From: Mimachlamys varia
Lineage: Eukaryota > Mollusca > Bivalvia > Pectinida > Pectinidae
Direction: 5' to 3'
NCBI GenBank assembly: GCA_947623455.1
Contig: OX392527.1
Location: forward strand, 27,582,201 to 27,646,200
DNA length: 64,000 bases
Position numbers and translations under genes: made by a program. The notes below the pieces were generated by a model. It worked only from the letters and a program-made list of their open reading frames with translations, was not told the origin of the DNA and did no database searches. Position 1 is the stretch's first letter. Every line of letters starts with the position of its first letter. Shown in pieces: positions 37,080 to 63,109 of this stretch.

Positions 37080-37330
37080 ACCATCATCAGATCATCATTC
37101 TTCCTCATCTTCCTGTTATCACTATTTCTTGAGAATTACTGAATGGATCATTCTCAAATTTCACATGTGAGTTTCCCTTCATGCGTAGTTGTGCATAGTC
37201 TATACAGACAGATTAAATATGGCCGACAGGTGGCCATCTTTGATTTGGATTGGCAAGTGAGATTATGCCATAGAGCAGCGTCCATCATCCATCCATTAAC
37301 TTTCTTATTAATCCCTTCTTGTCCTTATCC
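37080..37330 (+). repeat. Family C fragment
   Basis: 'taagcccaccatcatcagat' as at 34570, then 'gttatcactatttcttgaga' and 'ggccgacaggtggccatc'. Only about one and a half units remain. Confidence 0.6.
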
Positions 37331-37339
37331 ACATAGTAA

Positions 37340-38665
37340 CATTTGACCAGATTTGGTTGTAAACATCTTTCAGTAAAGAGGTGTCAATTTTGTATAAATC
37401 TGATCTGACTTCCCTAGGGTCTGAGGGTCGGGCCCCCGGGCCCAATAGGGAAAATATTGTAAATTCTTTGAAATCCTTTCTTTTCCTTAGGAATGACACG
37501 ATATTGGCCAAATGTGGTTAGAAGCATCCTTGGATGAAGGGATTCAATTTGTATGAATGGATCAATCTGTTTCTTGCCAGAGGGGCGGGGCCCCATAGTG
37601 AAAATACAGTAAATTATTAAAATCCTTCTTCTTTAGAAATGACAGGATATTCCTCAAATTTGGTCTGAAGTATCCTTGGAAGCAGTGGATTCAATTTTGC
37701 TTATAAACGTTCAGACTGAACCCCAGGGGCTTGAGGGGTGGGACTTGATAGGGAAAATATCGTAAACTCCTATCATCCATCTTCTTCTTGAGGAATAACA
37801 GGATATTGTCCAAATTTTGTGATAAGCATTCTTGGGTGAAGACAATTCAGATTTCATAATGGCTGGGCCCAATAGGGGAAATAGGGGTTATTCCTTTGCT
37901 ACTAGTCATGATCGAAGTTATCAATGGATATTGACCAAATTTGGTCAGAAACATCCTTGGGGGAAGGGGGAACATATTTTGCATAAATGATGACTCTTGA
38001 CGCTGGGCTAGAAGGTCGAGCCGAATAGGGGAAATAGAAGTTATTCCTTTAAATCGCTACTAGTCATCAAGTTATCAATGGATTTTGACCAAATATGGTC
38101 AGAAACATCCTTGGGGGAATGCATGGGAACAGATTTTGTATAAATGATGACTCTGACCCTCAATGGGCCAGAGGAGTGGGGCCCAATAGGTGAAATAGAG
38201 GTAATTCCTACTAAATCACTACCAGTCATAAAGTTATCAATGGATTTTGACCATATTTAATCAGAAAAATCCTTGGGGGAAGGGGAACCGATATTGCATA
38301 ATTGTTGACTCTGACCCCAGAGGGGCCGGAGATGCGGGGTCCAATAGGGGAAATACAGGTAATTCCTTTAAATCGCTACTTGTCATAAAGTTATGATTGG
38401 ATTTTAACCAGATTTGGTCAGAAACATCCTTGGATAAGGGGAACAGATTTTGAATAAAAGGTGATGCTGACCCCTAAGGGGCCAGAGGGGCGGGGCCCAA
38501 AAGGGGAAATAGAGGTAAAGCCTTTTAAACTACTTAATATGCTAAAGTTAAAATGGATTTTGACCAAAGTACTGAATGGATCTTTTTGGAAAATATTTAA
38601 CCATGATTACCTAAATACCAATGTATTCAGGTGAGTGATACAGGCCCTTTGAACCTCTTGTTTTT
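37340..38665 (-). repeat. Family A element, inverted relative to 20890-23517
   Basis: About eight diverged units with 'aaatttggtcagaaacatcc', 'ttggggaaggggaacag'-like and 'gggcccaatagggg', the reverse complement of the 20.9-23.5 kb array. It ends 'caggtgagtgatacaggccc' then 'tttgaacctcttgt', the standard family end. Confidence 0.8.
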
Positions 38666-40051: not shown

Positions 40052-40474
40052 ATTATACCCCCCCGCAACGAAGTTAGGGGGGGTATACTGGAATCAGCTT
40101 GTCTGTCCGTCTGTCTGTCCGTAGAAAAATGTTGTCCGGACAACTCCTCCTAAACTACTGGATCGATTTCAATAAAACTTGGCAGTATTGTTGGGGACCA
40201 TGTGTAGATGTGCATGCAGGGTTTCGTTTGTCAAAATTTTGGTTGCCATGGTAACCAGGTCACTATACACAGGTTTCCATAATAAAATGTTGTCCGGACA
40301 ACTCCTCCTAAACTACTGGATCGATTTCAATAAAACTTGGCAGTATTGTTGGGGACCATGTGTAGATGTGCATGCAGAGTTTCGTTTGTCAAAATTTTGG
40401 TTGCCATGGTAACCAGGTCACTATACACAGGTTTCCATAATAAAATGTTGTCCGGACAACTCCTCCTAAACTAC
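40052..40474 (+). repeat. Family D element (158 bp units), left part
   Basis: It starts with a hairpin, 'ataccccccc..gcaacgaag' pairing with 'ttagggggggtat', then 'tgtctgtccgtctgtctgtc'. Units of 158 bp contain 'atgttgtccggacaactcct', 'actggatcgatttcaataaa' and 'ggttgccatggtaaccaggt'. It breaks off after 'cctcctaaactac' at 40474 and continues at 58695. Confidence 0.88.
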
Positions 40475-41640
40475 ACAGGGTTTCGAGTGGTGACTATCGA
40501 ACCACACTCTCCACGGAGGGGGGCGCTAGAGTGGGGAGGGCTATAAAATTTGTTCACTCCACTATCCACGGTGGGGTGTGTCCCCCTATTCCCCACCGTG
40601 ACTACACCCGCTAGCTGTGAACGTGGAGCTCGTTGTAGGAGTGACTAATTTTCTTTACTGGCTATACTTTCTCCACACTCTATCGGCACGTTTTCATATC
40701 CACCGTCACACTACTTTACTAGCCCACCGGCACTCAACCGTGGACTGTGACTTCGATCTACCGTATACCCCAACTCCGATTCGTTTATATGTCTTGCACT
40801 ACCGAAAAGGAAAGAACGCTTTAAAACAAGTTACTTTGTGGCATACCATCTTGTAGTTAATATGAAAAAATTAACGGGTTTCCACTCCTCAAATAAAATT
40901 TCCTCATTGATGCTTAAAACAAAGCAACATTGCCTTGTATCGCGATAAATACACAGCCTTTGCCGAACGTTAGGGAAACGTTATCGTCAGAAATTCGCGA
41001 AACTCTACTCTTGTCGTTTGCAGAACCTTGGGGGTTTCCGACGATAGGGCAATATTTACGATGCACATTTAATTGTTCATGAGTTTGATTAGATTATGCG
41101 AATATTCAGATCTTTAAAGATAGCATTTTCATTTCAATGCAAGTTTATCAGTTTATACATACGTATCACCTAATCCTTACTACATCACCGATTGTAGGGA
41201 CTTAACTAAAATCATTTGCTTCAATTTCTGTGCAATTATTGCTATAAACGATTATATATTTTATAAAGTCATATATATACGCATATAGTTTGAAAGTTAA
41301 CCGCATTGTGTTTCTAATAGTGTTGTGAGGTTCCAATATGAATCTGTCTAATATACCCGTATTCCTTTACGGATAGTAGACGATTTGCCACTATGATCAT
41401 GTCAAAATACCGGACCGTCTATCACTGCGACTTCAAAACATCCTTTTTGGGATGTCGAGTTGGCGCAGTGGTAACGGCCGCAGGTATTTCAGGCTAGGCG
41501 ATTTGGTGCCGGAGATCCTGAGTTCGAGGCCCGGATAGGGCAAGAGTAAAAAAATTGTCTTCCTTCGTCATTTGTGTTTCCGTGTTATCCATATATATAT
41601 TACATTATATAGTAGAATCATGTCATCCATTTGTATGCAT
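40475..41640 (+). repeat. Left terminal inverted repeat of the giant element
   Basis: Compared with the right end it has an extra ~150 bp (about 40515-40680) holding 'ccactatccacggtgggg' and 'tccccaccgtgac', themselves an inverted pair, and an extra tRNA-like start at 41458. Confidence 0.7.
41458..41545 (+). other. tRNA-like (Pol III A/B box) sequence within the left terminal repeat
   Basis: 'gttggcgcagtggtaacgg' resembles an A box and 'gagttcgaggcccgg' a B box, about 45 bases apart. No complete cloverleaf with matched acceptor stem is visible, so this is not called a tRNA gene. The right terminal repeat has the B-box side but lacks the A-box side. Confidence 0.45.
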
Positions 41641-42846
41641 TGGTATAGTTTTAAAATTATCCTTAGTATCCGCCGTATCTGCATCATCGAATTCTACATC
41701 TATAAGTTGATCTCGCATTACCGACACTCTATATCATAATCGTAATTTGCCTTATTGTAAACTTCATCTCCATTAAATTACTAAATACAAATGGAATGAG
41801 GACAGAACTTTCGAAAACTTCAAAACACATTTGATAACCAGCATCAAAATTCTAAATCTGGTGTTTAAGTATTTCATTTTGGTAATTTTAATACGAAAGC
41901 AACACAAAGCCCTGTCCGTAAATTATTATAGCGTACGTTTTCTCATAGAACCTAAAGGTACAGCTACTTGGAATTTGCCGCTTCACTTACTACATGTAAA
42001 TTAATATAGTAAATACAAAACCGAACTTAAGTGCCAACAGATGTATTCGTTTTGTGAGTTGAGTTAAGTCATACTAACAGTTATGGTAGTTTAGGATGTG
42101 CAAGGTTTCGCCTAACCTGTTCGATATAAGCAAGCAAACATTTTCACTCTAAATGTAGTTCGGCGGATGTACATTTACTAAAAACACATAAAGCTGTATA
42201 TCTGCAAGCTATATAAGTAGTTTCAAATATACTTAATAGCTTATTATAAAAGGCTAAGAGTATACGCAACATGTGACGGCACAGGTTCAACGTAGTATTA
42301 ACAGTCGAATATCGGGAATCTTCGATCGTAGCTAGTGTACGTGTATGAAAATACGTCGTCACTTTCTTGTGTAGGTAACGTACCACCACTCAAACAAATA
42401 TTTAGATACCGCTTATATAAATGCGCGACAGTGCCCCCATGGGTACATGCTATCGGAAGTGGTGTCAAAAATATTGTGTTTTGTGTATTTAGGGATTGCA
42501 TATAATGTGACTTTTTATCATGCTAACAATTTTTATTTCGTTTTCTTGAAATTGATCCTTGTTCATCCCACATTATCTAGCGCGAGGAATTTGTTGTTCT
42601 GTAGAAAAATAGGACAACACATCATCCTCACCTACCTGCAAAACACCATCCCGTACCAAGTTTAAGCAGGTGGGCTACAGCAGGTAAGTTTGCCCAAGGG
42701 TTTGAGCAGGGCACAGGTTATGTTGATATCACGCGTGCACTCACAGCAAACATGGTACGAAATGCAATTGTAACATGATTCTTGAATTTTTCAATCATTC
42801 TAACTATTCTTCAATTTCCAATGTTCCCTTTGCTTTTTGTGGGCTT
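41641..42846. other. Interior of giant element, no gene seen
   Basis: AT-rich. Overlapping short frames at 42144-42665 have no recognisable domain. Confidence 0.4.
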
Positions 42847-42974
42847 AGCCAGAAAGTGTGCTACATCTGTAAAATATTTAGTATTAGTACAGCTGTTCAA
42901 CATTCTGATCGCCATAGCAACATCCAAGCTGTACTACAATTGAAAATTTTGCAGTTGTAGTACACTTTCTGGCT
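42847..42974. repeat. Foldback MITE, ~30 bp arms
   Basis: 'agccagaaagtgtgctaca' and 'tgtagtacactttctggct' pair with one mismatch, continuing 'tctgtaaaat' / 'attttgcagt'. 128 bp, non-coding. Confidence 0.75.
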
Positions 42975-43783
42975 CCACAACACAACACTAGAACTGTAAG
43001 CCAATGGCTAACTAATACACCCCGCTTTACACCATAAGTAGACGGAGAAGTACTGATTTAATAGTTTTATTTAACGTAAATATCTTCCACTTAGTGTTAT
43101 AATAGATTCTCAAAAAGCTATTTTTTTCCTGCAATAATGCTCATAAAGTATAAAATAAGAAATAAGAATAAGATTCCAAATCTTCCTTGAATATTTTGCC
43201 ATTTTTCCTTCGAGAGTTTTTCAATAGAAATTATTTCAAGGAAAATGCAAGAAAATTAAACTGTTTGCACATTCCATGGATTATGACAAAGTCTAAAACA
43301 CTACAACACCTAAATCAAATTTAAGGTAATTGCAACATCTCATATTTGCATAATCAAAATATCTAGATTAAAATCACCACATCTTTTGTTATAGATAACC
43401 AGAAATCACCTATATCATACTTCAAAGAAGAAATTATTATGATACCCAAGTTTTAGATGTTTGTCCGTGGGGAAAAAAACGTTTACGGACATTCATAAAA
43501 TAGCACATTACTTCAACTGGAGCCGACAGGGATACGTTATGTGCACTACTAGATAGTTTAAATAAAATTGATCAAATTGATCAAAGGATTGGCGAGTTAC
43601 GACCATTACACAAAAATTGATTTGTATATAGCGACCTGGCAAACATGGTAACCAAACTTTCTGCTAAAATATATCTGCATGTGCATCTTCACTTGGTCCT
43701 TAAGATTGAAACATTCCCTGTAGTTTCATTGAAATTTGTTCAGTATGGAGATTTCCGGACAAAATTTTACAAAAAAAAACATA

Positions 43784-44266
43784 CAGTGAAACCTCGCTTA
43801 AAGACCACCTCACTATTAAGACCACTTCATTTCAGTCCAAAAAAAATCTTCTATATATCTTTGTATTTTAAGCTTCAATATTGAGACCACCTCACTATTA
43901 AGACCACCTTGCTATTAAGACCAGTTTTGAAAAGTTCCAAATACCACCTTTGCACTAAGTTTCACCTCACTACTCAGACCACTGGCCAAACACAAAGTCG
44001 TCTGGCGTGTATTCCACTGTGTACACCTGTCAAGTACGTGTAAGATCAGTAAGCTGTATTTTGGTGTCAAATTGGCTAATTAGTTATAACTACTGTGTGT
44101 TAAACGATATTACGCTGATATATTAGTTAATTGTTCATGAAAACATGTCAAAATGTGGATTAAAGAGAAATCTGTCTGCATGGTCACCCTCGGTATTAAG
44201 ACCACCCAACTATTAAGACCACTTTGGTGTGGTCCCTAAGGTGGTCTTAAAAGAGAGGTTTCACTG
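43784..44266. mobile_element. pogo/Tigger-like MITE with CAGTGAAACCTC ends
   Basis: 'cagtgaaacctcgctta' and 'agagaggtttcactg' form inverted ends flanked by TA on both sides, as in Tc1-mariner/pogo elements. 'ctattaagaccac' is repeated several times inside. 483 bp, no transposase. Confidence 0.8.
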
Positions 44267-44904
44267 TATTTGTTTAGTGACCGGATAACCATGGCGACCG
44301 AAATTTCTGGTAAGAAAAGCCTGCATGAACATCTACACCTGGTGCCTACCATTCCTGTGTAATATTATTGAAATAGGTTCACAAGTTTAGGAGATCTTCA
44401 CACAAGTAACTATGGACGACATCTAGCAGACCCCTAAAAGGTCCTTTATTGGCCCAGATTTGCTGCAGTATCACTGCCCAGTACAAAGACAACATGATAA
44501 AGGTGTATGAATCTCTAAGATGAAACAATAACACGGACAGGTCAGCAAGGGCCCCGTCTTGTGACGAATTATCTCCCGTAATCATCAAGACTTGAGCTTT
44601 GGACCCATGCAGTGATCAAACCCAGCGATGTCGATCTATGGTCAATTAACATCTTGTGGAATTCTTACCAACTTTGCTTCATGGTGTCATAAGGAAATAT
44701 TCATTACTGAAAATTAAGTCTTAATGATTACAATGTGAACATGATGTTTTGTCGTTTGAATTATTAAATTCTGACAAAGTTGGCTTCATAATGTCATAAG
44801 GCATAAAAGAATTGTGTTTCCGATTTTTCGACCGATCCTAGTTTTTTAAAACGAAATATTTCGTTTTATCCGCCCCCACCCCCCTTCAAGGCACGTTTCA
44901 GTTT

Positions 44905-44970
44905 TTATTCGTCTTTTAATGACCCTGGCTTTTAATAGAACGTAAAAAACAATCAACCAACCAACTAGTT
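44905..44970 (+). mobile_element. SINE 3' tail fragment
   Basis: 'taatgaccctggcttttaat' then 'agaacgtaaa' and 'caaccaaccaac' match the 3' part of the SINE at 54394-54540. Head missing. Confidence 0.6.
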
Positions 44971-45145
44971 GTCTCACTGGGCATTATCATCCATTTAAAC
45001 AGCATGGAGATCATCGTCAGGTAATCGAAATGAAGCTGAACTTGCTGCTGAAAGGTCAATAATGGCGGTGGTTTCGAACGACACATTGATCGAAGATTTA
45101 TTCCGTCTTTATCACGATGATACGACGAAGACAACCATACGTGTG

Positions 45146-45278
45146 CACAGGGGCTAGGCACGGACCTATATCACTATGAAAATGCTTGTCAGATATTTTG
45201 TTTTTACCTTTTTCGAATTTAGCCCCTCACACTACTATTATATATATCTTTGACAGATATATAGCAGCGTGAGGGGCG
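45146..45278 (+). repeat. Fragment of CACAGGGGCTAGGC hAT-like MITE plus hairpin
   Basis: 'cacaggggctaggcacgg' and 'acctatatcactat' repeat the left end of the element at 52578. A foldback 'gcccctcacactactat' with '..agcagcgtgaggggc' follows at 45222-45278. No right terminus. Confidence 0.65.
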
Positions 45279-46219
45279 TTATTCGTAATTCCATTTCACG
45301 TGCGCAGACAGATGGACAGAGTAATTACTAAAGGGCACATGTATCTACGTACGAGACCCTAATAAGTGACGAAATCGAAAATGCCACTCAACTTGAACCG
45401 TAGAAAATGGCCCCACACATCCTCAAAATGTCCACCACAGGTTCCAATTCCCACTTATAACATGGGTAGCATTAATATACAATAGAAAGATGAAATGAAA
45501 TAATAATGAACTGAGAGCAGAAATCAGCAACAAAATAGAAACTTCCATCAAAACTTGCACCTGTGACGCCGCCGATCTCCGAAGGAGAGCCGAGCTTAAA
45601 ATGAATTCATCACACGAATGGAAACTTTTTTAAAGGGTTTATTTTCAAAATAAATGGGCATGTGTATTTCTGCTACATCCATTCCAGGTCATTGCTGCAT
45701 CAGATGGATCTATAGATCTATGCGGACTTCACGGATGAACAGCTCTCCTTAAACAAAACAAAAAACAATACTTATCCGGAAGCATGATACATTATTCGTA
45801 CATAGTGAGTCTATCATAATTGGCAATAACAGTTTCCAGAGCAAATACCGGTACATTTCCAGCTCCTGACATCGCCGTTTACTATGCCTATAATGGAACA
45901 GATGAGTGAATTCACGATGAACGGCCAGGTAAGGTATCGTATTGGAACTTTTTTGTGTCTTTACAAAATGTCCACCTGTCAACACAACATCGACTGCTAT
46001 CGAAATAGCAAATTATCAAAATTAAAGGTTTCTTGTCTAGTTCAGAGGTGTATTAAATGGGGTCACTGGTGAGATAGGGTCAGAAAAGGGTTCTAGTTGT
46101 GATGCATCGTGCTTCATACACGAAACAGTCTATGCAGACTCCCTTTATTTTACGTCGAGAGGGTGAAAAAATACAAAGAAAACATAAAAAAAATCGCAGA
46201 AAAGTAACATTGTCTCGGA

Positions 46220-46427
46220 CACAGGGACCTGAGAATTTGTTACAGCTAGTTTTGGACCTAAAATAGGGTGTTTAGAGTAATTTTACACATTTGGGGTCAT
46301 AAAAGCTACGACCATTGAGGGGGCACTTTTATCGAAAATTGATCTTAACCCCCCAAATGTGTAAAATTACTCTAAACACCCTATTTTAGGTCCAAAACTA
46401 GCTGTAACAAATTCTCAGGTCCCTGTG
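46220..46427. mobile_element. hAT-like MITE with exact 8 bp target duplication (CACAGGGACCTGAG ends)
   Basis: Nearly perfect ~77 bp inverted arms starting 'cacagggacctgagaattt'. The flanks GTCTCGGA at 46212-46219 and 46428-46435 are identical. An 8 bp duplication is the hallmark of hAT transposition. 208 bp, non-coding. Confidence 0.92.
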
Positions 46428-47584
46428 GTCTCGGACTGATCAAAAAATGTTCTACCTTAACAATATTACAAATGTATCCAAATTTACCACAACATTCTAT
46501 GCATTCGGATGGAATTCCCTTTGTTAATTAAATGTCACCATTATATTATAACGTACAACATCAAACTTTCATAAAATAATAATTTGTGCCGTAGCACCGG
46601 ATCATAAATTAGACAATACCCAGAGCTTAACAGATTCTACAAAACACGATATGTTCCTACCGGATAAAAGTATGAGAAATTGCACGCCATCATTCATGTT
46701 CACAATAACGCATCTAATAGCTAAATTGAAGTTTTACAAATGTCATTTGACCCTTTATTAAGCGTATTCGTTGAGTCAAACAAACCAGCAGACGACACAT
46801 GATTGTCGTATGGCGAAAACTAGGCTAGGCCTACATGGGTCAAGCCTATACGATTTACCAAACTAACAAAATGAAAATATATGAATTAACAAGAAAACAA
46901 GCATCATATATATATTATGCAATAAACCACACAGTAATTATCAATACTTACTCTTTAGGGAGGCCCGTATAGACGAAAACAATAGTAGTCCGCTTCCACA
47001 TGGTAGACATAAGGAACTTGCAACTAATATACTAATATGCGGATAGAGACGGGCTCAAATATCCGGACAACATATTCCGAACTCAGTGGACCGCGCGGCC
47101 GTAACAGCACGGACTAAGTAATACGTAAATTAATTAGGTCCCATAAAATGATATCTGTCTGACAATGTGTGCGTACATTAGATGCGTTTGGGATATCTTA
47201 ACGACTTTCTCTTATGTTTGATAAGCAGTCATAACATATATATGTACAAAAGCACTAAATAGAAAGTATTTGCCGATTTACGTTTAATTTGTTCTTACTT
47301 GGGAAGAAATTTGTATTTCTGCTGACTTATTTCCTAACTGATTATTAAATGGCTGGAAATCAATTATAATCATTAAAACTGGTAAAGGAACGATGTTCTG
47401 AATTTGAAATAAACCTTTTATTTTGACTTCAATAGGTGAATTTCTCGTTATGGCTCTCTGGCAGCAAGTTTTGGCACATGTATATGGAAGGCCTGGTATT
47501 TGATTGCACATCTTGTACAAAACTATCATTCTTTGCAATTACTAATTTCCGGGTAAGGATACGTTTGATACATTTAACTAGTTT

Positions 47585-48575
47585 CACAGGGGCCTGATAA
47601 TTTGTTACAGGTAATTGCATACCTTAACTGAGCTTAAATGGCCAGTGAAGGGGACATTTTTTCGAAAATTAAAATCGATCTAACCGCATATACGTCCCTG
47701 ATCTAACAAAGGACATATACGTCCCTGATCTAGCTAAGGACATATACGTCCCTGATCTAACCAAGGACATATACGTCCCTGATCTAGCCAAGGACATATA
47801 CGTCCCTGGTCTAACCAAGGACATATACGTCCCTGATCTGACCAACGACATATACGTCCCTGATCAAATCAATGACATATACGTCCCTGATGTAGCTAAG
47901 GACATATACGTCCCTGATCTAACCAAGGACATATACGTTCCTGATCTAACCAAAGACATATACGTCCCTGATCTGTCCAAGGATATATACGTCCCTGATC
48001 TAGCCAAGGACATATACGTCCCTGATCAAATCAATGACATATACGTCGCTGATCTAACCAAGGACATATACGTCGCTGATCTAGCCAAGTACATATACGT
48101 CCCTTGTCTAACCAAGGACATATACGTCCCTGATCTAACCAAGGACATATACGTCCCTGATCTAACCAACGACATATATGTCCCTGATCTAATCAAGGAC
48201 ATATACGTCCCTGATCTAACCAAGGACATATACGTCCCTGATCTAGCCAAGGACATATACGTCCCTGATCTAACAAAGGACATATATACGTCCCTGATCT
48301 AACCAACGACATATACGTCCCTTATCTAGCCAAGGACATATACGTCGCTGATCTGACCAAGGACATATACGTCCCTGATCTAGCCAAGGACATATTCGTC
48401 ACTGATCTAACCAAGGACATATACGTCCCTGATCTGTCCAAGGATATATACGTCCCTGATCTAGCCAGGGACATATACGTCCCTGATCTAACCAAGGACA
48501 TATACGTCCCTGATTCAATATATCTCAGTTCATATCCAAAACTAGCTTAACAAATTATCAGGCCCTGTCCCTGTG
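47585..48575. mobile_element. hAT-like MITE of the same family carrying an internal minisatellite
   Basis: The left end 'cacaggggcctgataattt' and the right end 'aaattatcaggccctg..tccctgtg' (with 'ccaaaactagct' inside) are the terminal repeats of the 46220 family. No 8 bp duplication is visible at the flanks. The interior is almost entirely the 27 bp array at 47687-48515. Confidence 0.8.
47687..48515. repeat. 27 bp minisatellite, about 30 units
   Basis: Unit 'acatatacgtccctgatcta' plus 'accaagg' with scattered single-base variants (gatcta/gatctg, accaagg/gccaagg/atcaatg). Because 27 is 9 codons, frames stay open on the minus strand, but nothing suggests translation. Confidence 0.95.
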
Positions 48576-49980
48576 TTCAGGCGCCATAAAGTATCTGAAT
48601 ATGTGTGTATTTTCGCATAGCATACTACAGGTACCGATACAGGCACTACATGTTTGCCGTGTTTGCAGTGAGTCCGCGTAATGATGAAAATCTGAAAGTA
48701 TGACTTTGACCACAGCATTACACTGTAAAGATCGCAAGTTTTATCGATGCTTTGACATTCATGTTATTTTATAGCTATACATGTATTATGCATTCAGAAT
48801 AATATCAGATACACTTATATATCTGTAACGTAATTTTATTTATCTCCAAGTACAATGTGTACCATCACAAACTTAGATAGCAGCTCTAATGTAATTCTGT
48901 GGTACCATAGATATCTGTACCTTTAATTCTCTCATGATTTAGTGATTTTATACTCCCGTGTTCCATATCTTTCTGCCATTATTTTGTTTCTGTAACATAA
49001 TTAAGTCCTCCATGGATAGAGATATTGAACCATTACTTTGGTAATATATGTAGTTGTATGAAGACGCAAATCAGGATCTGGCTATTAGTCTACTTAAAAC
49101 TAAAATTACATCGCTGACATTGGAGAGCCTTTTCTCAGACCAGTGTATATTGTATTTGCTGGTATGCCTATGTGAGCACCAATAGTTTTTTTACCGTCAA
49201 ACTGACTTATTTGAACTCAGCACTATCATAGTGTCACACATTACATCACATGTTACAAATACAAGTATGAGTAAAAATGTACAATTGTAATCAAGACCAC
49301 TTTTAAATTGATGAAAAGCCTTAATTGTCATATTAGGATCAAACTTATGTGCCAATATCTGTCAGCAGCCTTACCTGCAATTATAAGTAAAGATCATACA
49401 TGTATACGGTGTGATGACCTGTTCCCAACTAACAATCAGGGGCCGCGGGGTTATTATCAGGCCTCTGACCTGATACAGGTTGACCAGGAGGGGTTGAGGC
49501 CTGGGGGGAGGGGGTCATTATCTAATTAGACGGCCAAGTGTAAGCCTGTCTAAATCTTCACATCTGATCTGACCTGATACAGACACAACATTGAATAGGG
49601 AGGGGACGGACAACACCCAATTATCAAAACTCGTTCATTGTTTATTGTGTTTTGAGCTTGTTGTAGTTTGAAAACTTTCAAATGTGAAGCAGTAATTCTT
49701 CTTCACGTTATACTTGAATGAATAATATTTTAATTAAAATATAACAGTCTTATAACATTATATATCCATTCTGATCAGCTTTACTTTTATTACACATATT
49801 ATACAAGATTAAACAGCAGGCATAGTCTATATTTCTAGTTAAACAACTAAGTAATGACACTTTATATAAACATATACAGTAACAAAAATATTGATTGATT
49901 GATTTAAAAAGATACATATACATATATATGTTATACTATCTACAATTTAAAATGTAATATGAGTGTGGCCCTATATGTAG
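48576..49980. other. Interior of giant element, no gene seen
   Basis: No recognised gene or repeat. The frame at 49308-49529 has no known domain. Confidence 0.4.
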
Positions 49981-49984
49981 AGTA

Positions 49985-50140
49985 TTAATGCCTGATAGGA
50001 CTTCAGGTAGAATTGGAGTGGACCAGGAGTGCACTCTAAGTTCACCTGGAGTCCAAACGGAATGCACTCCAAGTTTACCTGGAGTCCAAAGGAGTGCACT
50101 CCAAGTCCAAACAGAGTGCACTCGGAGTGCACTTTGTGTA
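49985..50140. repeat. Short GGAGTGCACTCC-type degenerate repeat
   Basis: 'ggagtgcactcc' or variants recur five times with 'aagttcacctggagtccaaa' between the first ones. The palindromic core gives open frames on both strands. Confidence 0.65.
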
Positions 50141-52569
50141 ACCTTTAGTCTACACTCAAATGTAGTTCGTCAACATGTATGAAAACAAGCGATAGAGAGC
50201 AATATTACATCCAGATCGTCAATTAAAGATATCCGGATTATCGAGGGTCCATTTTACATATTTTGGACGTATTGTCAAAAATAAGAAGAGTAAATTTGTT
50301 CTTTAATTGTACAATGCAGATGTTTGATTTCTTTGTATCTTTCTTTTCTGAGATTATCAGCATCACTGGAATGTGTCGTCAGGTACGTACCAATAAACAG
50401 GAAACTATGTAATGGATGCTTTGATTAAAGCCTATTGAACAATGTGTCGAGAAAAGAATTTATTTTATAAACAATGTTTCTTGTTAAACGTATAAATAAC
50501 TAAAAATGTCACTCACATTAAAAAGTTAAAATATTGACAAACAGTTACATCTTCTGTATCATTAAACAAGCATATAAATGGTAAATAAATGTTGGGTTTT
50601 TTTTTACGTGAATACCATGAATCTTACTTTATTAAAGTCATCTTGTATGATTAAAAAATGTGATTATATTACGTCAGTTTTAAAGTTAATTGTCCGTTCA
50701 CCGGGTACACCTGATTACAGGTAAAGCCCTACAAGTAAGATGCGTTGGTTGTCCCGTGGTCAGGGAAATAACAGCCCCGAGCACAATTCTATACACCCCC
50801 GTCATCAGGAGGTGTCAAAAATCAGTCAAGCGTTTCTGGTCGAGTGTGTCATTGAGCACGTAATCTCCCAGTCCCCGATACGGTCGTTAGTGTTAATTGG
50901 TCAGCTGTGAACTGGACTTACGGATGCCAGAGACACTCAATTTGTAAAAGCCAGTAGGTAATGACTTCATGTCATATTCCAATAAAGGGAAGCTACTCTT
51001 CATTCTATCTTATGAAGAATGTTATAGATCAAATAAATAAAAATTAAAACATAAGTAAATGTAGTACCAGAGCCCTTGCATAAATCCTAAGCAGACAAAG
51101 AAACTTGATTAATCATTAACAAATAATCATAACTGTTAAATTATTTCAGCATATTTTGTGATTTAAAAAACCCAATGTGTATTTGAACTTTTAACAATCT
51201 ATTGCGAGTTTTATAAATATATATATATATGTATCTGTATGTGCATCAGAGGGTTTACATATTATTGCATGTGTCGGTGTACATTTAAAATTTCATATAT
51301 GAAGTTGTAGCAAATAACATCAACTTGTATTGAGCACAAAGGAACAACATGTTTCGTAGTTTTGCTACTCAATCTAATTTTGTGGTGTTGTCTTTAAAAC
51401 CTCAGCCGTGCAATATCTTGACTAACTCGGGTGTTACGTTTGACCAGAGACTATTCGTTTGAGCAGGGACGTATCTTACCAGAGACGTACACATTGTCAC
51501 TATAGATATACATTATGTATGACTGTGGTCTTGACTTTTATTATGGAATAAAGCATATAGTTGTATACAAAATAAAACATTTAACATTCACATGTAATGT
51601 TCAAGACGGCGGGGACGATTCTATACAAATACATATAGACGTGTCTGTTCAGACGTGTGTTCAGTAGTACTTACAACGTGACCAGCATAGTGTGGTATGT
51701 TTTTGTACCTATGTAATCTGACATTGGCCCGGGCATTAGACACCTGTATCTTCGGTACTGTATACTCAGCAGTACATACCCCTCGGGGCATGCTATAACG
51801 TTTCTTTAGTACCAGGGAACCGACAGATAAGATTTACCTGTAGTTGGAGGGTCAGTTTATCCATATATATGATCGATAAAGAAATTGCATATAAAGAATT
51901 GAAAATTACTTTAGTAAGTATACACAGGTATTATCTTTTTGATTGAAAATAGTTACCGACATGCACTAGTTTGTCTTTCAAATTGAAAAGGGGAACACGG
52001 TCATTATGCTAAATGATACATGTATAACTTTCCTGTCGCTATAGACTTAAACAAGAACAACAAATAATTTATATAGATAGAATGTAAAAACAAAACTGTT
52101 TTCTCAAAAAGAAATTTCGTACTACATCCGTAGCACAGATTTTCTTCCAGCCGGCCTTTTGATTAAAAGACCAGTAGCCACTATAGGCTTCGATTTGGTA
52201 AGCAGGTAGAAATGCTTCTAACCGTAATATTTTATTACCTGTGTGTCGTCGCTTTAATCTGTTAGCATACCCATGACTGGTGTTTTTTTTATGATAGATA
52301 CGTTTAGTTAGTTACGTGTTTAACGCCACTACGTACACAGATATATATCCGTGTTACGACCGGCTTTGTCTTTATGATTCACGAGACATATTATTTATTT
52401 TCATACACTCATACATTCTTCCTCTGTACATGTGTCGTGGATATATTCATTCCTTATGCTTCCGCTTTTTATATAACCGTCATCCGTAGCATTTGCCTAG
52501 GATTTCCTCAGCACTTCCATACCGTTTGCGTCTGAGTTGGAACAACGAAACGTGTATGCCTCTGTACTT
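50141..52569. other. Interior of giant element, no gene seen
   Basis: AT-rich with no coding pattern. 'gagcagggacgtatcttacc' at about 51460 slightly resembles the 27 bp unit but is single. Confidence 0.4.
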
Positions 52570-52577
52570 GTCTAGCC

Positions 52578-53053
52578 CACAGGGGCTAGGCACGGACCTA
52601 TGTCACTATATGAAATAATTGTCAGATAATTTGTTTACCTTTCTCAAATATAGCCCCTCCCACTACTATATATCTGTGACAAGGAAAAGAACTAGCCTGA
52701 ACAAGAAAATCGACCTTTTTCAGGCAAGTGCCCACCTACGGTTTTTAATGCAAAACCTCGGATTCTAGACAGCCTAGTAACCTATTACATACGTGAAGCG
52801 GGATATAGTTGGTATCGGCTGAAAGATTGAAGTTTCACCTTTAAAATGAGGCATGCATGTAAAAAATTTGATTTCATTCAGTGACGAAAACAAGCTTAGA
52901 GTGAAAATAGGTCGATTTTCTCGTTCAGGCTAGTTCTTTCCCTTGTCACAGATATATACAATGTAGTAGTGTGATGGGGCTATATTCGAGAAAGGTAAAT
53001 AATCATCTTACAATTATTTCGTAAGTTACATAGGTCCGTGCCTAGCCCCTGTG
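52578..53053. mobile_element. hAT-like MITE with exact 8 bp target duplication (CACAGGGGCTAGGC ends)
   Basis: Inverted arms of about 130 bp start 'cacaggggctaggcacgga'. A second inner inverted pair is 'aactagcctgaacaagaaaa' with its complement at about 52915-52940. Flanks GTCTAGCC at 52570-52577 and 53054-53061 are identical. 476 bp, non-coding. Confidence 0.92.
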
Positions 53054-53488
53054 GTCTAGCCACTTATATAGAATATATAGCCATAGGGCATAACGATACC
53101 TACATGTACCTGTGAATTAACAGGTAAAGTATTTACCAATATGTGTTACCCCTTACCTGAATATGTCATAGCCAAAGTGCATATATAACAGGTACTCCAG
53201 TTAACAAATGTAGTATGAATAATTAGATATTTAAAATGTTTTTTTTCCAGAGTCGCATAACCTTACATCAGAGACGTATAAAGGCTTAATACGTATCTTC
53301 CTTTTAGTTTGGGGTAACGGGACAATATTTCAGATTTGAGGAGCTACGTCTCGCATTAATAATGATAGGAGCTAAACAGGAAATCGATTGATCAAATAGT
53401 ACGATGAGGAATCGAAACGGTACCGTTGCTGCCTATACCAGAAGTAGTGTTTCCTATATGCGGGTACTGACAAAACACACGTGTACTG

Positions 53489-53514
53489 CACAGGGACCTG
53501 CGAATTTGTTACAG
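53489..53514 (+). repeat. Solo end of the CACAGGGACCTGAG MITE
   Basis: 'cacagggacctgcgaattt' then 'gttacag', one mismatch from the 46220 end. No partner. Confidence 0.6.
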
Positions 53515-53969
53515 CACGGAGCTATATTATTGCTGACGACCATTAAGACACATAAACAATATTTTACAGGCCGTAAAGATGAACTATTACATGTAATTAT
53601 AAATAATAATAATATTGATTGTGTTTCATATAGATACGCCCCTCTCATTTTACTACACTATTCATTGTACAAAACGTATTATACATCAATGTACTTAGGA
53701 GTTAGATTAGGTTATCATTGCTATCCCCATGCCCTAACTGTAAGCCATTCACATTTTAAATATAAAGTACAATACAGATAATTTGTCTCAGATTCAATTC
53801 ATTTCAATTTATTTTCGTAAGTGTTACAACTTCTAGGATAAACATTTTTACATATATGGAACAAACAACAACATCATCTTCATCACTGACTAATCATTCA
53901 CGTCATGATTGTGTCCGATACAATCAATCAATAATGTTTAATCTAAGTATCGCAAGAATATCACTCCTT

Positions 53970-54075
53970 GGATTGGAGATTTCTCTGTCACATCCTCCTC
54001 ATCATCAATATCAGCAGCAGCAGCAACAACAGCATGAGCAGCAACAGCAGCAACATCATCATCATTCTGATATAT
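53970..54075 (+). repeat. CAG/CAT trinucleotide-rich tract
   Basis: 'catcatcaat', then 'cagcagcagcagcaacaaca', then 'catcatcatcattc'. The frame around it (53856-54188) would give a Gln/His-rich peptide ending in hydrophobic sequence, but there is no supporting domain, splice or start context. Confidence 0.8.
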
Positions 54076-54393
54076 ATGGGTTTCAAAGGAGAGGCTATAT
54101 GCCATCTTCAGATGTATACATATTCAGTTCAGGTTCTGTTTCTATATATATATTTCTCTCATATATTTACATCAATGCTCACATGTAATTTCATCTCGTA
54201 TAACGTTATAATTTTATACTTATTGCTATAGTGTATGTTCTTACATTTACATTCCGACAGAGGCGGAATGTAACAATTGTCTCCATCTCATACAGCCGTC
54301 GGTTTAAAATAAACCGAACATATCTGCCAAAAACCTTGATGGTTTTAACTGTAAGCAACATGTGTTTGACACTATGTACTTTCTAACGGGCCG

Positions 54394-54540
54394 CGCGCGG
54401 TGGCTGAGTGGTTAAGGTGTTCTGACTGTAGGTCGGTGGTTTTTCTCCGGGTACTCCGGTTTTCCTTCACCTCAAAAAACCTGACACGTCCTTAAATGAC
54501 TTTGGCTGTCAATAGGACAAAAAACTAAATAAACCAAACT
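54394..54540 (+). mobile_element. tRNA-derived SINE with internal deletion
   Basis: The head 'gcggtggctgagtggttaag' is an A-box region. It jumps to 'gactgtaggtcggtggttt', 'ctccgggtactccggtttt', 'tgacacgtccttaaatgact' and 'aaataaaccaaac'. The B-box segment normally found between head and body is missing, so this copy could not be transcribed by Pol III in the usual way. Confidence 0.75.
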
Positions 54541-54850
54541 TTCTCATACAAAGATCAAGCCATAGCATGCCGAAAGTGTTCCGATGTACTAGTAGCCACC
54601 TGAAATTGAAAATATTGAGTTGCCGGAGTAGTAGGTCTGACTATCTGCCTTAGTCTGACAAACTCCAACATATTAAGAAACGACATCTTACATTATTAAG
54701 CTTGTATATCAGTGCACAACGAACGATTATAATCTGATTACTGTCTTGAATACATCGTCATCTGTCACCACTTGAATAGACGCTATCGTTTTTGTTGTTC
54801 GATGTTGTCGCTTTGCTACTCCGGATATAGACAGGATCGGTAGCTTAGCT

Positions 54851-54981
54851 CACAGTTGCTTGAGTTTCTGTCAGATAGGCATAGGCCTATATATAAGAAC
54901 CCCCCCATTATAGTAATGGGCGACTCCTTATATATATATATATATAAATGTTATTTACTGACAGAAACTCAAGTAACTGTG
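54851..54981. mobile_element. hAT-like MITE, CACAGTTGCTTGAG family, copy 2
   Basis: 'cacagttgcttgagtttct' and 'agaaactcaagtaactgtg' ends. CTTAGCT repeats on both flanks (GCTTAGCT, 8 bp, if the last G is shared). Interior 'cccattatagtaatggg' and (AT)n as in 32367-32522. Confidence 0.85.
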
Positions 54982-55566
54982 CTTAGCTACATACCGGTAT
55001 ATCATGTCGATTACCCAATGTGAAGAGCGGCAATACCGGCATATTGGTATACTCATTTATGATTGGTAACTGAACAGTTTGTTGAATGAATATGTGTAAA
55101 GCTTATAATTTTATATGGAATGTGTAGGATTACGTAAGTTACGTCTCGGCATATATGTGTAAGATAGCGGACAGTGTTCTCCGTGTAAGAGTTCGTGTTT
55201 AGATTGTTTTGTGTAGGAAGGTGAAGTGAAATAGTACATGTATATGTATATGAAGCACGTTTTGTACCATACCTGGTACATCATATTCTTCTTATGAATT
55301 AAAACTGGTTCAGCGTTAATGTCTTAGCTGTAGCACTAGGAGACCGACTCTCTGTAGCTTTGTCATTATATGTATGAATACACTGTACTATTATCAGAAC
55401 GATATCATGACTTTTCAGTGACGAGCTATACAGCTAAACTATACAGTCGCTTTGTGGTCGGACTCCAACCGAGGCACGGCTAATTACATGTACACTGTTA
55501 CGTGGAGACACGACCTTGCATAGCAATATCAGGAAATTACGAACCATGCGAACCAGTCGGAACCTG

Positions 55567-55640
55567 TTGGTCTGATGGTAACGGCCTGGTTTTATAACAT
55601 AGAGATCCCGGGTTCGCGCCCCGCTCGTCACATATGATTC
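55567..55640 (+). other. tRNA-like sequence
   Basis: 'gttggtctgatggtaacgg' (A-box-like) and 'cccgggttcgcgccccg' (B-box-like). It shares 'ggtaacggcc' with 41458-41545. No clean acceptor stem is visible, so it is probably a tRNA pseudogene or SINE head. Confidence 0.45.
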
Positions 55641-57540
55641 ATTTCTCCTCTTTCTTGCAAAATATTGGTTATTACCCAGGTCGGGATGTGTTTTTTAATT
55701 ACAATATGTACTAATTATAACAAATGATATTTTCTTAAGTATCATTTCAGCTCCTGGTAATAGATCCAATGTTACGTCGTGACGGATCTGTTTGATTTAA
55801 ATGCCTTCGTTAGGTTCTTTACAGTTGACTTCACGTTTCGTAACAATACTAAAACTCGGGGCCAACTCGTTATCCACCCGAACATTGTGACCGCCGTTCA
55901 ATGGAGTTTAAAACAATCAAGTCATAATATCAGTTCTCACGACTCTCGGTTAAACGGAACATGGAGATTATAGTAGTCAACTTTTATTATAATAGAATAT
56001 ACTTTTCTTATCAACATATTGGTTTTTTATTTCGTCACGAGTACAAATACAGTAGTATCTCAAACTTCCAATGGAATTGAATTATTCTGTACGTAGATAT
56101 GATACTCCGTACATTGTCGATCAACTGACGACATCAAACACTTTTTATTTTCCAAATTTGTAATGTGCAGATTTTTCTTCTACATAGTCAGATCTGTAAT
56201 TATAAACCATGTATTCCTCCCATTTGATAACCGGCGACTTAACATCTACGCACGTCAGTAATAAGTTAAACAATAGTTTTATTCAATATTCATTGAAGTA
56301 TATTTTGTACATACTTTAAGGACATAATTTAGGACTACAAAACAAGCTTAAAGATTACAGGAGACAGACTCACATTAAGTATCTATATATATTTCTTTTT
56401 GAATCTTTATGGTTGACATGAAATGTGATTAATGTTTAAACTATACTAACTATTTGTACAAAATGTTTTACGTGTAAAATCAGGTTAATTCCTTGACTAT
56501 ATCGGCGTATGATCGACCTTATCTTCCATATATGTATAGTGTCTCGTAAGCCGATATCGGCTGGATATCACTTTCAAAAATTGATGGTATTTTAATGTAA
56601 AATTCAACTGATATGTGATATGTGAAACATTATCATGGAAGGCCAGGTTGTATGAAACAAAGCAATAGCATTAATTATAACGTAATACAACACGTAACAC
56701 CACGGAATTAGATCAACGTGAGTGAAATAGCAAATTAAAAATTGATGTATATTACAATAAATAATCAAGTGCAAAGGGCGGGACGTAGATGTATGTCCAC
56801 AGCAATATATTAAAACTGTGCTGTAATACCAGATGAAATTATGCATGATAATTGATGTATGTTCATGTTGTACTTACGTCATGATATAGGTAGTGTCCCG
56901 TGTTATATAATTATAAATATACGTCATTATAGAAATTTTACGTTCCTTATTACATATGCTTTACGATAGATTTTTTTATGTTTATAATACATTATATTGG
57001 TCATATCATAGCAATATGTCAGTTATTGTACGAGAGGGGCGGTGCTACTTCTTAACCTCGTAGCGCGATAGAATTAGCTCCGCCCCTTACGATAACTGAC
57101 ATGTAACCGACTTGTCACACAAAGTGTCACATGGTAATTTCATGCAGTAATATGTCGAACTAAGTCTGAAAGTCTTGGTCAAGCTTGGACCATTTTGACC
57201 GACGATCTGGAAAATATTCATTGTTCCAATTGCTGACGTGACTTGAAAGTGACCAAGACCTTATAGGACTGCCAATTTCGGAATGTTGACAAACTTTTAC
57301 TTATCGGCGATCATAGACCAGTCTGAGGAGCAGGAAATACCCGTTTACGCCGCTTATCGTATACCATTTGAAGCTACGTCCAAATATTTAAGTAAAAAAC
57401 AGACTATATTCTTGCTAAAAATTCGGTTGCAAAACGATACTAGCTACTTTCCACGGTTTTGATATCCTGTCAATTCACTTTGGCCACATTTAACGTTCAT
57501 TTCGTTTTATAATAAAGGCAGACAATTCGATAGCCATTGT
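55641..57540. other. Interior of giant element, no gene seen
   Basis: AT-rich with no recognised domain. It contains the hairpin at 57015-57102. Confidence 0.4.
57015..57102. repeat. Hairpin with ~27 bp arms
   Basis: 'atgtcagttattgtacgag' plus 'aggggcgg' pairs with 'ccgccccttacgataactga' plus 'cat' with small differences. Confidence 0.75.
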
Positions 57541-57544
57541 TACA

Positions 57545-58694
57545 ATTTTGATGCATCGAATATATGTATATTACAGAAACACAAATGGTGAAGGAAGACA
57601 ACTTTTGACTCGTGCTTTGTCCGACCTCGACCTCAAAATCTACGACATCAAATCGCATATACAGAAATACCTAATAAAAGATGTTTCAATGTTACAGTAA
57701 TAGACGGTCCGGTATTTGGACATTATCATAGTGTCTAATCGTCTTTTGTAGATGATGTGAATACCTGAATCGCAATGTATATAATGGATACGAATTGTAC
57801 TATTATATATATTAATCACGATACAATTATGACATGTATATGATACATTGTGTTTAATTTATTTATGAATAACACAGAAACACAAATGACGAAGAAAGAC
57901 GATTTTTGACTCGTACCTGTCCGGCCTCATGATCAGAGAGAACCAGTCTAGTTAGTAATATCGACGATATTGACCATTATATATACCGGATCCGAACATA
58001 GATATAATTATGATCGTTGAAGTAATAACAATAGTACCGAAAATACTCATTTTTAAGCCTATCCACCCCTTCATCAAGACACAAAAACACATTTCATCGC
58101 ATGCAAGGAATACTTCGCTTAATGTTATATGTACATTTGTGTATGTGATGTCATGTGTTTTTTGTGTCTTGATAAAGGAGACGATAGCCTTGAACATTTG
58201 ACAATGTCTTTGTCCGTACTGTCGTAATTACTTCAACAATCATATCACTGTTTCCATATACCCAAAATAAACTGTATACACTACTCATTTTTCTTTAATT
58301 TGTGGTTTCAAAATTGATACGTTTTCACCGTGCTCAAATATTTCATTAAATTCTTATTTGTATAAGGACTTAGCTTATGTAACCAACATGGTCCACGGTG
58401 TAGAGTGGTAAACCTTCATTGTAGCGTGCTACTGACGGATACATTACACGTAAAGGAGAAGACTGCTACACGGTGGTGTAGACAAGGGAAACGTGTGAGT
58501 TTTAGGATCGCGACACACACACTACGTGTACACCACGTTCCACGGTGGTGGCAAAAAGTTGAGTTGCGGTGTACCGTGGGGTCACGGTCCTCCGTTGAGT
58601 GCCGGTGGGCTAGTGAACGAGGAGTCGCGGTGGATTAAACGGCAACGTGCCGGTGTTTCGTGGAGAGCGATAGTTCCCACTCGAAAGCGTCTGT
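57545..58694 (-). repeat. Right terminal inverted repeat of the giant element
   Basis: Besides the matches to the left end, this arm duplicates one segment: 'cagaaacacaaatg' then 'gaagga(a)gac' and 'ttgactcgt' occurs at about 57573 and 57877. A hairpin, 'catcaagacacaaaaacaca' with its complement (58072-58173), lies within it. Confidence 0.7.
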
Positions 58695-59385
58695 ACTGGA
58701 TCGATTTCAATAAAACTTGGCAGTATTGTTGGGGACCATGTGTAAATGTGCATGCAGAGTTTCGTTTGTCAAAATTTTGGTTGCCATGGTAACCAGGTCA
58801 CTATACACAGGTTTCCGTAATAACGTGTTGTCCGGACAACTTCCTATAAACCACTGGATCGAGTTTAATGAAACTTGGCAGTATTGTTGGGGACCATGTG
58901 TAGATGTGCATGCAGAGTTTTGTTTGTCAAAATTTTGGTTGCCATGGTAACCAGGTCACTATACACAGGTTTCCATTATAATGTGTTGTCCGGACAACTC
59001 CTCCTAAACTACTGGATCAATTTCAGTGAAACTTGGCAGTATTGTTGGGGACCATGTATAGATTTGCATACAGGGTTTCGTTTGTCAAAATTTTGGTTGC
59101 CATGGTAATGAGGTGACTATACACAGGTTTCCGTAATAACATGATGTCTGGACAACTTCTTCTAAACTACTGGGTCATTTTCAATGAAACTTCGCAGTAA
59201 GTAATGTTGAGGATTACTATACACAGGTTAAAATTTGTCCGTTCGGCTTTTAAAATTCTGCTGACTGTTGACATTATATAATGCATGTTATATACAACTT
59301 GTACTACATCATGTTTTTTTCAAAAACATGTCAGACACCTCTAATAAGAGGTAGCGGGGGGGTATTAGTCAGCCATCGGCTTACA
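58695..59385 (+). repeat. Family D element, right part
   Basis: It continues the unit broken at 40474, with about three more 158 bp units (ATG-like positions 58717 and 58875 differ by 158). It ends 'gaggtagcgggggggtatt', complementary to the left-end hairpin. Confidence 0.85.
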
Positions 59386-62100
59386 GTTCTAGTTTTTCAT
59401 AATTTCATATTTTCATCTCATTTGATGCAACAATACGTGTAGTGACCGATACCCCGTCTCCCTCGGTGTTGGGAAAATAGACAAGCTAGGTGACGTCCCA
59501 TTTCTATGAGCCTCGTGAATATGCATATTTTGACCGGGATTCTAGGTCACGTGATGTGTGACGTCATTGAGGCATAACGTATCCGATACCTGTACACGCC
59601 CATTACATATTTATGTATTATCTGTGAGTGTTAAGATTGACTTTTATCTAATTTTCTGGTGCAAGTAATGACAGCAACCAATACATGTTATGTAGTTAAA
59701 ATTATCAATCGTCATTAATGATCTAGTCAGAAAAATAAAACTTATCTAATCCCGATTTTTACATAAACTGCATTCAATTAGAATCTAGTCCGTGACGTCT
59801 CAGCACTCCAGCTTAGAGACAGTGATACAATTAACACAATCTGATTTTACAGTTATGTAAATTACCTGTAGCCTTACCTGTCATACATATACTAGACAAA
59901 AGGCATTTGTTGTACCTACCTGTGAGTTGTGGCAGGTGTACTAATTACCCTGTAATTACCAAAAGGTGTGAATGTTATGACCAGTGAATTCGAAGGGCAT
60001 TCATGCTAATATAATTACCGATCCTCTAAATAGCAATATACACCGGCACAATTATTTTTATCCCTAGCCGTCCCCGGTGTTGGAAGAAAAACTTAGGATT
60101 AAAGGAGTTTTCAACAGAATCTAACAATATTTTATCAGTATTTAACATAAGGCTAGTAATCTTGGCAAAATTTGACACTGTTAATCAGGTTAAACTATAT
60201 TTGTATCACATATATACGATGTTCTGAAATTTCTAAATTTTTAAAGTTTCATTATTTTTGTAAAAATGGTGATGCTGATACTATGACGTTTTTTTTCTTC
60301 AAAGTTATTGCATATTTTAAAATATCAACATAAACATTTGGTTATTGGATTTATCAGGAAGGTATATGTGTCCCCATCTTCGCTAGGATGATGTGTCCCT
60401 GGATTTATGATATATATTCAGGGCGGATCCAAGAATTTAGATGCATTAATGTGACACACTTTTACTTTCAGATATAAACCCAAATTTATCAAGATCTTGT
60501 TTATGAAAACTGTATGAAAAACAAGATTTAAACTCGTCTAATGATTTGAGTCCTAGTTGAAATGAATATCACCAAATAGAGTGAGCCTTACAAAATTCAT
60601 TTATGTATCGCGTTTGAATTTCACGTATATCTAGAATCCTGTGTCTGTTCTAGTACAATTCAAAGAAAATGGCACAGTATTTTTCTGCGCTAGGATTTAG
60701 AGTAATTATTTCAAACTGCAACCACTAAAAGATGTTGTAAAAACGTATGCAGTAATCGTAGGAGAACAATTTTTCAAAAAATGTTTCAATAATCATTAGC
60801 GTATGTTATTTGTTTTAATCATGACCACAGACTTGATCCTTGGAAAATATTTATAATTATTCACACAAATAGACTGGTGTGTTACTGAATTAAGTGAAAT
60901 AAAAAAAGTCGGGAAGAGCTTTTTATTTTTGCAAACCGATTTCAGTCCAAATTTTAAATAATATTTCAATTTAACAGAAATAATTCAGACTGTCATGTTT
61001 TCACACCTATTTGTGACAGTTTCTGCATTATTGAAATCAGGCAGAAATTGTTTACGTGCACAGTTCAAAAATTTAAATGATTTGTTTTTGGCATTCCATA
61101 TGTGCGTGCTGTACTACTACTACCATATACGTATATGTTATAGAGTGGTGGGGGTTTGCCGGACACTAAAACATAAACTTGCCGGTGCTTTATTTACTCC
61201 ATCTCCACAAATCATACTGTACTGTTGAAGTCATAAAAGATAATACTTCTGAGGTATTAACGAAAACATTTGATTGCACAGCGTAAACAGTTTGTATTAG
61301 CAAATCACATGATTTTAAAATCACCAAGATCTAACACAGAGTATATTACCGGACACTATATAATATGCAATCAAGGAAGATTTGATGTTTGCGAATTTTG
61401 CATGTTGTGGGTATAACTTGGAACACGTATTCATGATTCAGCACTGTATGCTGTTTTAATTTAATTCTAGCTTAATACAGTCTATACAATCAAACGTTTG
61501 AAAAAATCCCTGCTATTTCAAGAAAATGATATACTCACAACCACTCTATGCGTGTATGTTGCTACTGTTTTCATATACTATCTATATAAAACCAATTTGT
61601 AACGTGTCTGTAAAAATCATAAAGTCCTTTCAAAGGCTTTACTAATTCCGTGGTCCTTTGTAGAAGCATAATTATTGTTAGGATGTTGTGGATGTATAAT
61701 ACACACTCACAACACGATGTTTTTAAATGGCATTTCCTATTTACTTTCTTAAGTTTACAATTACATATCTATATTTTTTCAAGGTATTTTATTGGTTAAT
61801 CAATAGAATTAAACAACAATCATGATCGACTTACATGTCGAAATCAATAGGCGTTTTTCTACTAAACTTTCTTCGTCAATGTACCACTGATCAGTTTACC
61901 TGAGTTGATCAGTTGTGCTTCAATGACGTCACAGGTACCACGTGACCGGTCAGCTCATTAAAATTCTCGCCAGTCGGGAGCGGTCAACTTTGACTGTCAA
62001 TATCTAGATCCCGGGACACAATATTAATCGAATGCTCGTTGATGGGCTAATCAGTATTTATTGAAATGTAGTACAAGTTTCATAACTTTTTACAAGATTT
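59386..62100. other. Intergenic or intronic stretch, nothing recognised
   Basis: No exon, RNA gene or repeat family recognised on either strand. It was checked for the missing cyclophilin terminal exon ([14 protein letters not shown] coding) without success. Confidence 0.45.
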
Positions 62101-62910: not shown

Positions 62911-63109
62911 TCAATCAGAGTCAGCTTTGCTTTGTTTAGATGAAATGAATATAAGCTACATGTACATGTACATGTACGTCGAATGGTCAAACGATTGCTG
63001 TGATTGGTCATGCTCAGTAGCAAAAAAAACAACTCTGACCAATCAAGTTAATTGGTTTCATAACATGCAACACACGAAACGAGTATGCAAAATACCCAAC
63101 ACTATTTTT

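Follow-up and report, generated by a model that had tools for sequence, protein, structure and literature searches.

Our analysis of a 64,000-nucleotide stretch of the genome of the bivalve mollusc Mimachlamys varia (assembly GCA_947623455.1, contig OX392527.1, positions 27,582,201 to 27,646,200 of the forward strand; hereafter the window) supports a model in which 18,220 bp at 40475-58694 constitute a giant non-autonomous cut-and-paste (DDE-type) DNA transposon, with CACTA/CMC-like machinery fitting best. We put the probability of this model at about 0.7. A non-autonomous transposon is the best reading because related tips lie at both junctions, subterminal sites accompany them and the segment has no detectable genes. 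The element interrupts a tandem repeat in mid-unit.

Insertion site and inverted ends

The host is a 158-bp tandem repeat (family D) in which one unit breaks off after 40474 and continues from 58694. Its left part occupies 40126-40474 (+ strand; 99% matches in Tandem Repeats Finder, TRF) and its right part, which starts with TAC, 58694-59199 (+ strand). We read both junctions directly, and the array limits set by TRF, with the left array stopping at 40474 and the right one starting at 58694, agree with that reading. When the two halves are joined and the shared TAC is counted once, they yield exactly 158 bp without gaps, identical at 156 of 158 positions to the left neighbour (unit u2). The joined unit thus has 2 mismatches to u2 and 3 to u1, also on the left; the two right-hand units tested differ from it at 14 and 13 positions. 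As a yardstick, u1 differs from u2 at 1 position and unit u4 from u5 at 20. Because the rejoined flanks form one near-identical 158-bp unit, we conclude that the insertion was clean, with an overlap of no more than 3 bp. TAC is present at both 40472-40474 and 58694-58696, and the duplication could accordingly be TA, AC or TAC. The limits given above are those of the AC reading; they become 40474-58693 if TA was duplicated and 40475-58693 if TAC was. An earlier note on this DNA had proposed a repeat unit split by 18,220 bp and an overlap of 2 bp (AC) or 3 bp (TAC); direct reading, TRF and the rejoined unit bear out the split and the spacing, and the overlap stands with TA as a further option. 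By eye, C-rich and G-rich inverted borders (ATACCCCCCCGC near 40055 and GCGGGGGGGTAT near 59354) surround the 158-bp array, and the host may itself be a mobile element spanning 40055-59365.

The two arms of the element are related to each other in inverted orientation. Their inverted local alignment scores 254.7, compared with a maximum of 91.1 among 100 dinucleotide shuffles, and spans offsets 0-1182 on the left and 0-1190 on the right. As a piecewise control we used 200 real stretches drawn from positions 1-40000 of the window. None of the 200 reached the arm score for offsets 0-60, 60-400 or 850-1200, or for 0-250 against 0-330; no significant inverted similarity was found at offsets 400-880 or 1190-2200, where 115 and 87 of the 200 stretches, respectively, did as well. 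The inverted similarity is real, lies in collinear blocks separated by an unalignable middle, and stops near 1.19 kb. Inverted tips with inverted blocks persisting for about 1.1 kb had been claimed beforehand, together with the possibility that the blocks might prove unrelated; shuffles and real stretches both show them to be related, with the middle as the qualification.

The outermost match pairs the left tip (40475-40515, + strand) with the right tip (58659-58694, - strand), and its core contains 26 matches, 2 mismatches and 7 gap positions. A 19-base pattern derived from the two tips themselves, TTTCGAGTGGNNACTATCG, occurs twice in the 64 kb when as many as 3 mismatches are tolerated, once at each end and in inverted orientation, where 0.07 occurrences are expected; 0 of 100 shuffles reached two. 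Block 2 (40684-40751, + strand) is an inverted match of 58581-58652 with 57 matches, 10 mismatches and 6 gaps (E 8.7e-8). The inner block of the left arm (41378-41636, + strand) has inverted matches at 57560-57744 and 57821-57928, within the right inner block (57560-57928, - strand): one alignment has 152 matches, 33 mismatches and 34 gap positions and the second 87, 19 and 7. The larger blocks differ at 15-18% of aligned positions, the split host repeat at about 1-2%. The arms are not plain mirror images of each other. Block 2 is found at left offset 209 and right offset 42, making the left arm about 165 bp longer from its tip to this block. A portion of the inner block is present once in the left arm and in two direct copies in the right (57560-57628 and 57861-57928). 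The left inner block includes a tRNA-like stretch with box motifs recognized by eye; such tRNA-like heads, of the type found in short interspersed nuclear elements, were seen at 41455-41540, within the shared inner block, and at 54390-54530 and 55548-55640. Despite the boxes in the inner arm block, ARAGORN called no tRNA gene. A hairpin at 58055-58191 in the right arm has no left-arm counterpart and gives a weak match to a microRNA model (Rfam, E 0.15).

Clustered subterminal repeats are a feature of CACTA/EnSpm transposons, and the ends of the element carry a candidate of this kind. Sites matching CCAC(C/G)GTGG with at most 1 mismatch number 4 in the outer 400 bp on the left (40475-40874, + strand) and 3 on the right (58295-58694, - strand), whereas the element has none in its inner 17.4 kb and the flanking 45.8 kb contains 2; shuffled ends contain 0.245 on average and never more than 2 (200 shuffles). 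For k-mers that were not selected, 1000 shuffles yielded 0, 1 and 3 cases as high as the counts of the commonest 6-, 7- and 8-mers in the ends. Under the TA reading, and only there, the element begins CACAGGG and ends GTCTG, that is, it has CA..TG termini with a 2-bp duplication.

Contents of the body and of the window

Between the arms, the body (41657-57504) consists of nested mobile-element copies and fragments with no coding domain detected. Six-frame translation of overlapping halves, with X at stops, followed by hmmscan gave no Pfam domain at E<=0.1 in any of the 12 translations, a procedure that weak domain remnants can escape. Three single reading frames had no Pfam domain even at E<=1, and the reading frame at the right end had no homologous protein (2 candidates, none at E<=1). 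The longest open frame is a 209-codon minisatellite and the next, of 140 codons, includes a low-complexity stretch. The minisatellite, a 27-bp repeat at 47687-48514 that keeps the 209 codons open as IYVPDLTKD repeats, sits within an element with a hAT-like tip.

Two of the nested elements are hAT-like miniature inverted-repeat transposable elements (MITEs) with exact 8-bp duplications, one at 46220-46427 (duplication GTCTCGGA, 77-bp arms identical) and the other at 52578-53053 (duplication GTCTAGCC). The minisatellite-bearing element, 47585-48575, has a similar tip; its right end was placed by eye, no matching flanking duplication was seen by eye and no close second tip appeared in the scan. 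A single-ended relative of the 52578-53053 element (83% match) lies at 45146-45255 on the + strand with no partner tip found, and the tip scan recorded lone tips without partners at 45146 and 53489, of the same kinds as the nested elements. A small nested terminal-inverted-repeat element with a TA duplication lies at 43784-44266. A diverged remnant of the family-D type, itself interrupted, occupies 42984-44393 in reverse orientation (- strand), with inverted matches to 59357-59396 (90%), 58891-58967 (75%) and 58879-58965 (76%). A further small inverted-repeat element was noted by eye at 54850-54981. The element had been described as a stable host for later insertions. The two exact 8-bp duplications agree with that description; the single-ended pieces at 45146 and 53489 favor passengers that predate the jump. 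Since such pieces lie inside the element, we favor the view that the 18 kb moved here as one piece and that the body, with its passengers, is probably in large part older than the jump.

The CpG ratio is 0.88 in the body, 1.29 in the inner arms, and 0.91 and 1.28 in the outer 400 bp on the left and right, compared with 0.61 over positions 1-40000. Computed per kilobase it reaches 0.95-1.43 in 12001-18000, 41001-42000 and 55001-58000 and is 0.12-1.04 elsewhere. We dropped a foreign origin as an explanation of the high values because 12001-18000, outside the element, is equally high (0.95-1.43).

Patterns from the ends were also run against collections of viral and prokaryotic sequence, which may omit records from the window's own genome. 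In IMG/VR the tip pattern and the block-2 pattern had 0 matches each and the inner-block pattern matched 1 contig; among prokaryote genome contigs the tip pattern matched in 4, all bacterial. At these 5 loci the arm alignments extended over only 18-23 bp with E >=0.058, and because they are so short and so poorly scored we regard them as chance. This null result is as expected for animal DNA. Rfam returned 18 matches at E<=1 on the window (17 microRNA models and 1 SmY), of which 0 reached the gathering score.

Outside the element, a transposase frame at 5571-7067 contains DDE_Tnp_4 (E 3e-16) and is interrupted at 6405-6407 by an in-frame stop; we take it to be Harbinger/ISL2EU-like. Its first part has 126 protein matches at E<=1e-3. 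Most rows carry no organism; those named among the at least 120 matches listed are the bivalves Saccostrea, Mytilus, Pecten, Mercenaria, Dreissena, Crassostrea, Ostrea and Pinctada, with a rotifer, a butterfly and an "invertebrate metagenome" as the exceptions (one match each). These relatives by themselves make a bivalve origin of the window very probable. A long hairpin at 12844-13001, which matches a plant-type microRNA model below the Rfam gathering score, is probably a MITE. Dense palindromes (GGATATCC) in direct and inverted copies form an array at 14411-15915. Related repeats of about 157 bp occur at 20970-23493, 37257-38568 and 62155-63606; their similarity is 66-87% across as much as 1.4 kb, and the first is oriented opposite to the other two. 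An inverted 400-bp pair, 27055-27451 and 32608-33002, is 90% identical and about 5 kb apart.

Order of events and competing explanations

We envision a scenario in which the enzyme, a transposase whose gene lies elsewhere, would bind both tips and subterminal sites and bring the two ends together across the 15.8 kb of intervening DNA. The whole element would then be excised and inserted at TA (or TAC or AC), moving with arms that were already unequal and a body that already contained older mobile-element debris. That the arms were unequal prior to this jump is probable, since their divergence (15-18%) far exceeds that of the split unit (2-3 of 158 positions), unless homogenisation of the array masks the age of the insertion. 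The earlier note called the segment a large non-autonomous or decayed DNA transposon. "Non-autonomous" fits the clean insertion, the tips, the subterminal sites and the lack of coding sequence; "decayed" finds no support in the arms, whose divergence is far greater than the few differences seen in the split host repeat.

Several observations weigh against a giant non-autonomous transposon of CACTA/CMC-like type. The tips are not CACTA, and they are unequal; under the TA reading one is CACAGGG and the other CAGACGC. A single insertion can neither fix the length of a duplication nor distinguish a duplication from a chance overlap. The CCAC(C/G)GTGG motif was picked after inspecting the ends, and a word shifted by one base, TCCACGGTG, is less exclusive, with 3 copies in the left end, 3 in the right, 2 elsewhere in the element and 4 outside. 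Real 400-bp pairs from the window match the k-mer counts of the ends in 334, 431 and 502 of 1000 cases (k=6, 7 and 8) and, when only GC-rich k-mers are counted and the main tandem arrays are excluded, in 83, 93 and 159 of 1000. It is this particular motif that clusters at the ends; short repeated words in general are not unusual across the window. Array homogenisation is another possible reason for the small divergence of the split unit. Finally, neither another copy of the element nor a transposase belonging to it was seen in the 64-kb window.

The strongest competitor, if an unlikely one, is a macrotransposon whose arms are two diverged copies of a smaller element, with a transposase having mobilised the host DNA between them as a unit. 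This would account for arms that are unequal although the insertion looks young, for the roughly 165 extra bp between tip and block 2 on the left and the partial doubling of the inner block on the right, and for a body that lacks element genes and holds single-ended element fragments. However, there are no inner tips of the supposed parents, as the tip pattern occurs at the outer ends only, and the near-equal aligned lengths of the arms (1182 and 1190) fit one old long-armed element as well.

We consider it somewhat less probable that the segment is a gene-less copy of an element of another kind, such as Academ or a Harbinger/ISL2EU-type element with a TA duplication. Academ has been amplified in bivalves (PMC10294476; this and the other papers cited are drawn on in part), and TA-duplicating Harbinger-type elements, PHISTA, occur in fungi (PMC12730594). 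The broken DDE_Tnp_4 frame at 5571-7067 places a relevant transposase in the same window, yet none of the 21 end pairs found around it, mostly TA repeats, resembles the ends of the giant. The six-frame Pfam scan detected no domain remnant, and curated Academ elements average 5,565 bp (PMC10294476).

More doubtful is the broader proposal that this is a recently mobile member of an undescribed group of DNA transposons, in which unequal 1.2-kb ends act as multi-site platforms and an outside transposase moves about 16 kb of non-coding host DNA and nested elements in one jump. An 18-kb filler or rearranged segment acquired during break repair through 2-3 bp of microhomology would suit the short overlap and the lack of a further copy in the window, but it would not be expected to have inverted tips at the two junctions, collinear blocks in the arms and subterminal sites on either side, and we regard it as very improbable. 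A virus remnant was rejected, as no domains were detected, and Polinton and hAT on duplication length (<=3 bp here).

If mobile, the element would be an animal case of a transposon that moves about 16 kb of cargo with no genes of its own and clearly unequal ends, and the clustered subterminal sites at those ends would provide a testable idea for how such large cargo is moved. At 18.2 kb it falls just under the 20-kb threshold for "giant" adopted by one review. No description of it was found in the literature, supplementary files and subscription journals lying outside the scope of that search.

Comparison with known transposon groups

The CACTA/EnSpm-Mirage-Chapaev-Transib (CMCT) group mostly has CA..TG termini and duplications of 2 to 5 bp (PMC12730594). 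The overlap described here is within that range and the sequence rules out anything above 3 bp, with chance overlap possible for a single insertion. CACTA transposons exist in autonomous and non-autonomous forms, some exceed 20 kb and some carry host sequence, although the part of the source drawn on here does not state which of those above 20 kb are non-autonomous (PMC4938662). The giant resembles large non-autonomous CACTA/EnSpm elements in its 2-3 bp duplication, CA..TG termini (TA reading), subterminal sites and transposase-free cargo. It differs from them in its tips, in the lack of a linked CMC transposase, none with that signature being detected inside the element by the six-frame Pfam scan, and in its unequal arms of about 1.19 kb, where inverted repeats of 145-158 bp are reported for pvCACTA1 and 10-54 bp for other CACTA elements (PMC4938662). 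With tips other than CACTA and no linked transposase, membership in CACTA is not proven; the architecture is CACTA/CMC-like. In how it works we class the element as a giant passenger of the CACTA type, since the TA reading gives CA..TG termini with a 2-bp duplication and CACTA elements include non-autonomous ones and some above 20 kb. The earlier statement that it fits none of the common families was therefore too strong, given that the CMCT pattern of duplication and termini and CACTA elements above 20 kb have been published.

Other groups share fewer of its features. Polinton/Maverick elements duplicate 6 bp, unlike the giant with at most 3 bp. The giant has inverted ends and a size within the 15-25 kb typical of Polintons (PMC6431247), but DNA polymerase B, integrase, ATPase and protease were all missing at E<=0.1 from its six-frame Pfam scan, and the exclusion of this group in the earlier note holds on both counts. 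Unlike hAT transposons, which leave 8-bp duplications as the two nested MITEs do, the giant has at most 3 bp. For Tc1/mariner, the TA duplication is one of three readings here, and no transposase domain was found. Academ elements duplicate about 3-4 bp. The TAC reading would give the giant a comparably short duplication in a host group where Academ is amplified, but it is far longer than the surveyed mean of 5,565 bp (PMC10294476), and no Academ domain was found in it. Among the fungal groups that duplicate TA, ESTA is EnSpm-like and PHISTA belongs to Harbinger (PMC12730594); the likeness to the giant depends on the TA reading, the source describes these groups from fungi, and the giant offers no transposase for comparison. 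Composite or macrotransposons such as Teratorn, as far as its description is drawn on here, likewise hold a large cargo between transposon ends, but the giant differs in having neither a virus-like domain nor inner copies of its ends.

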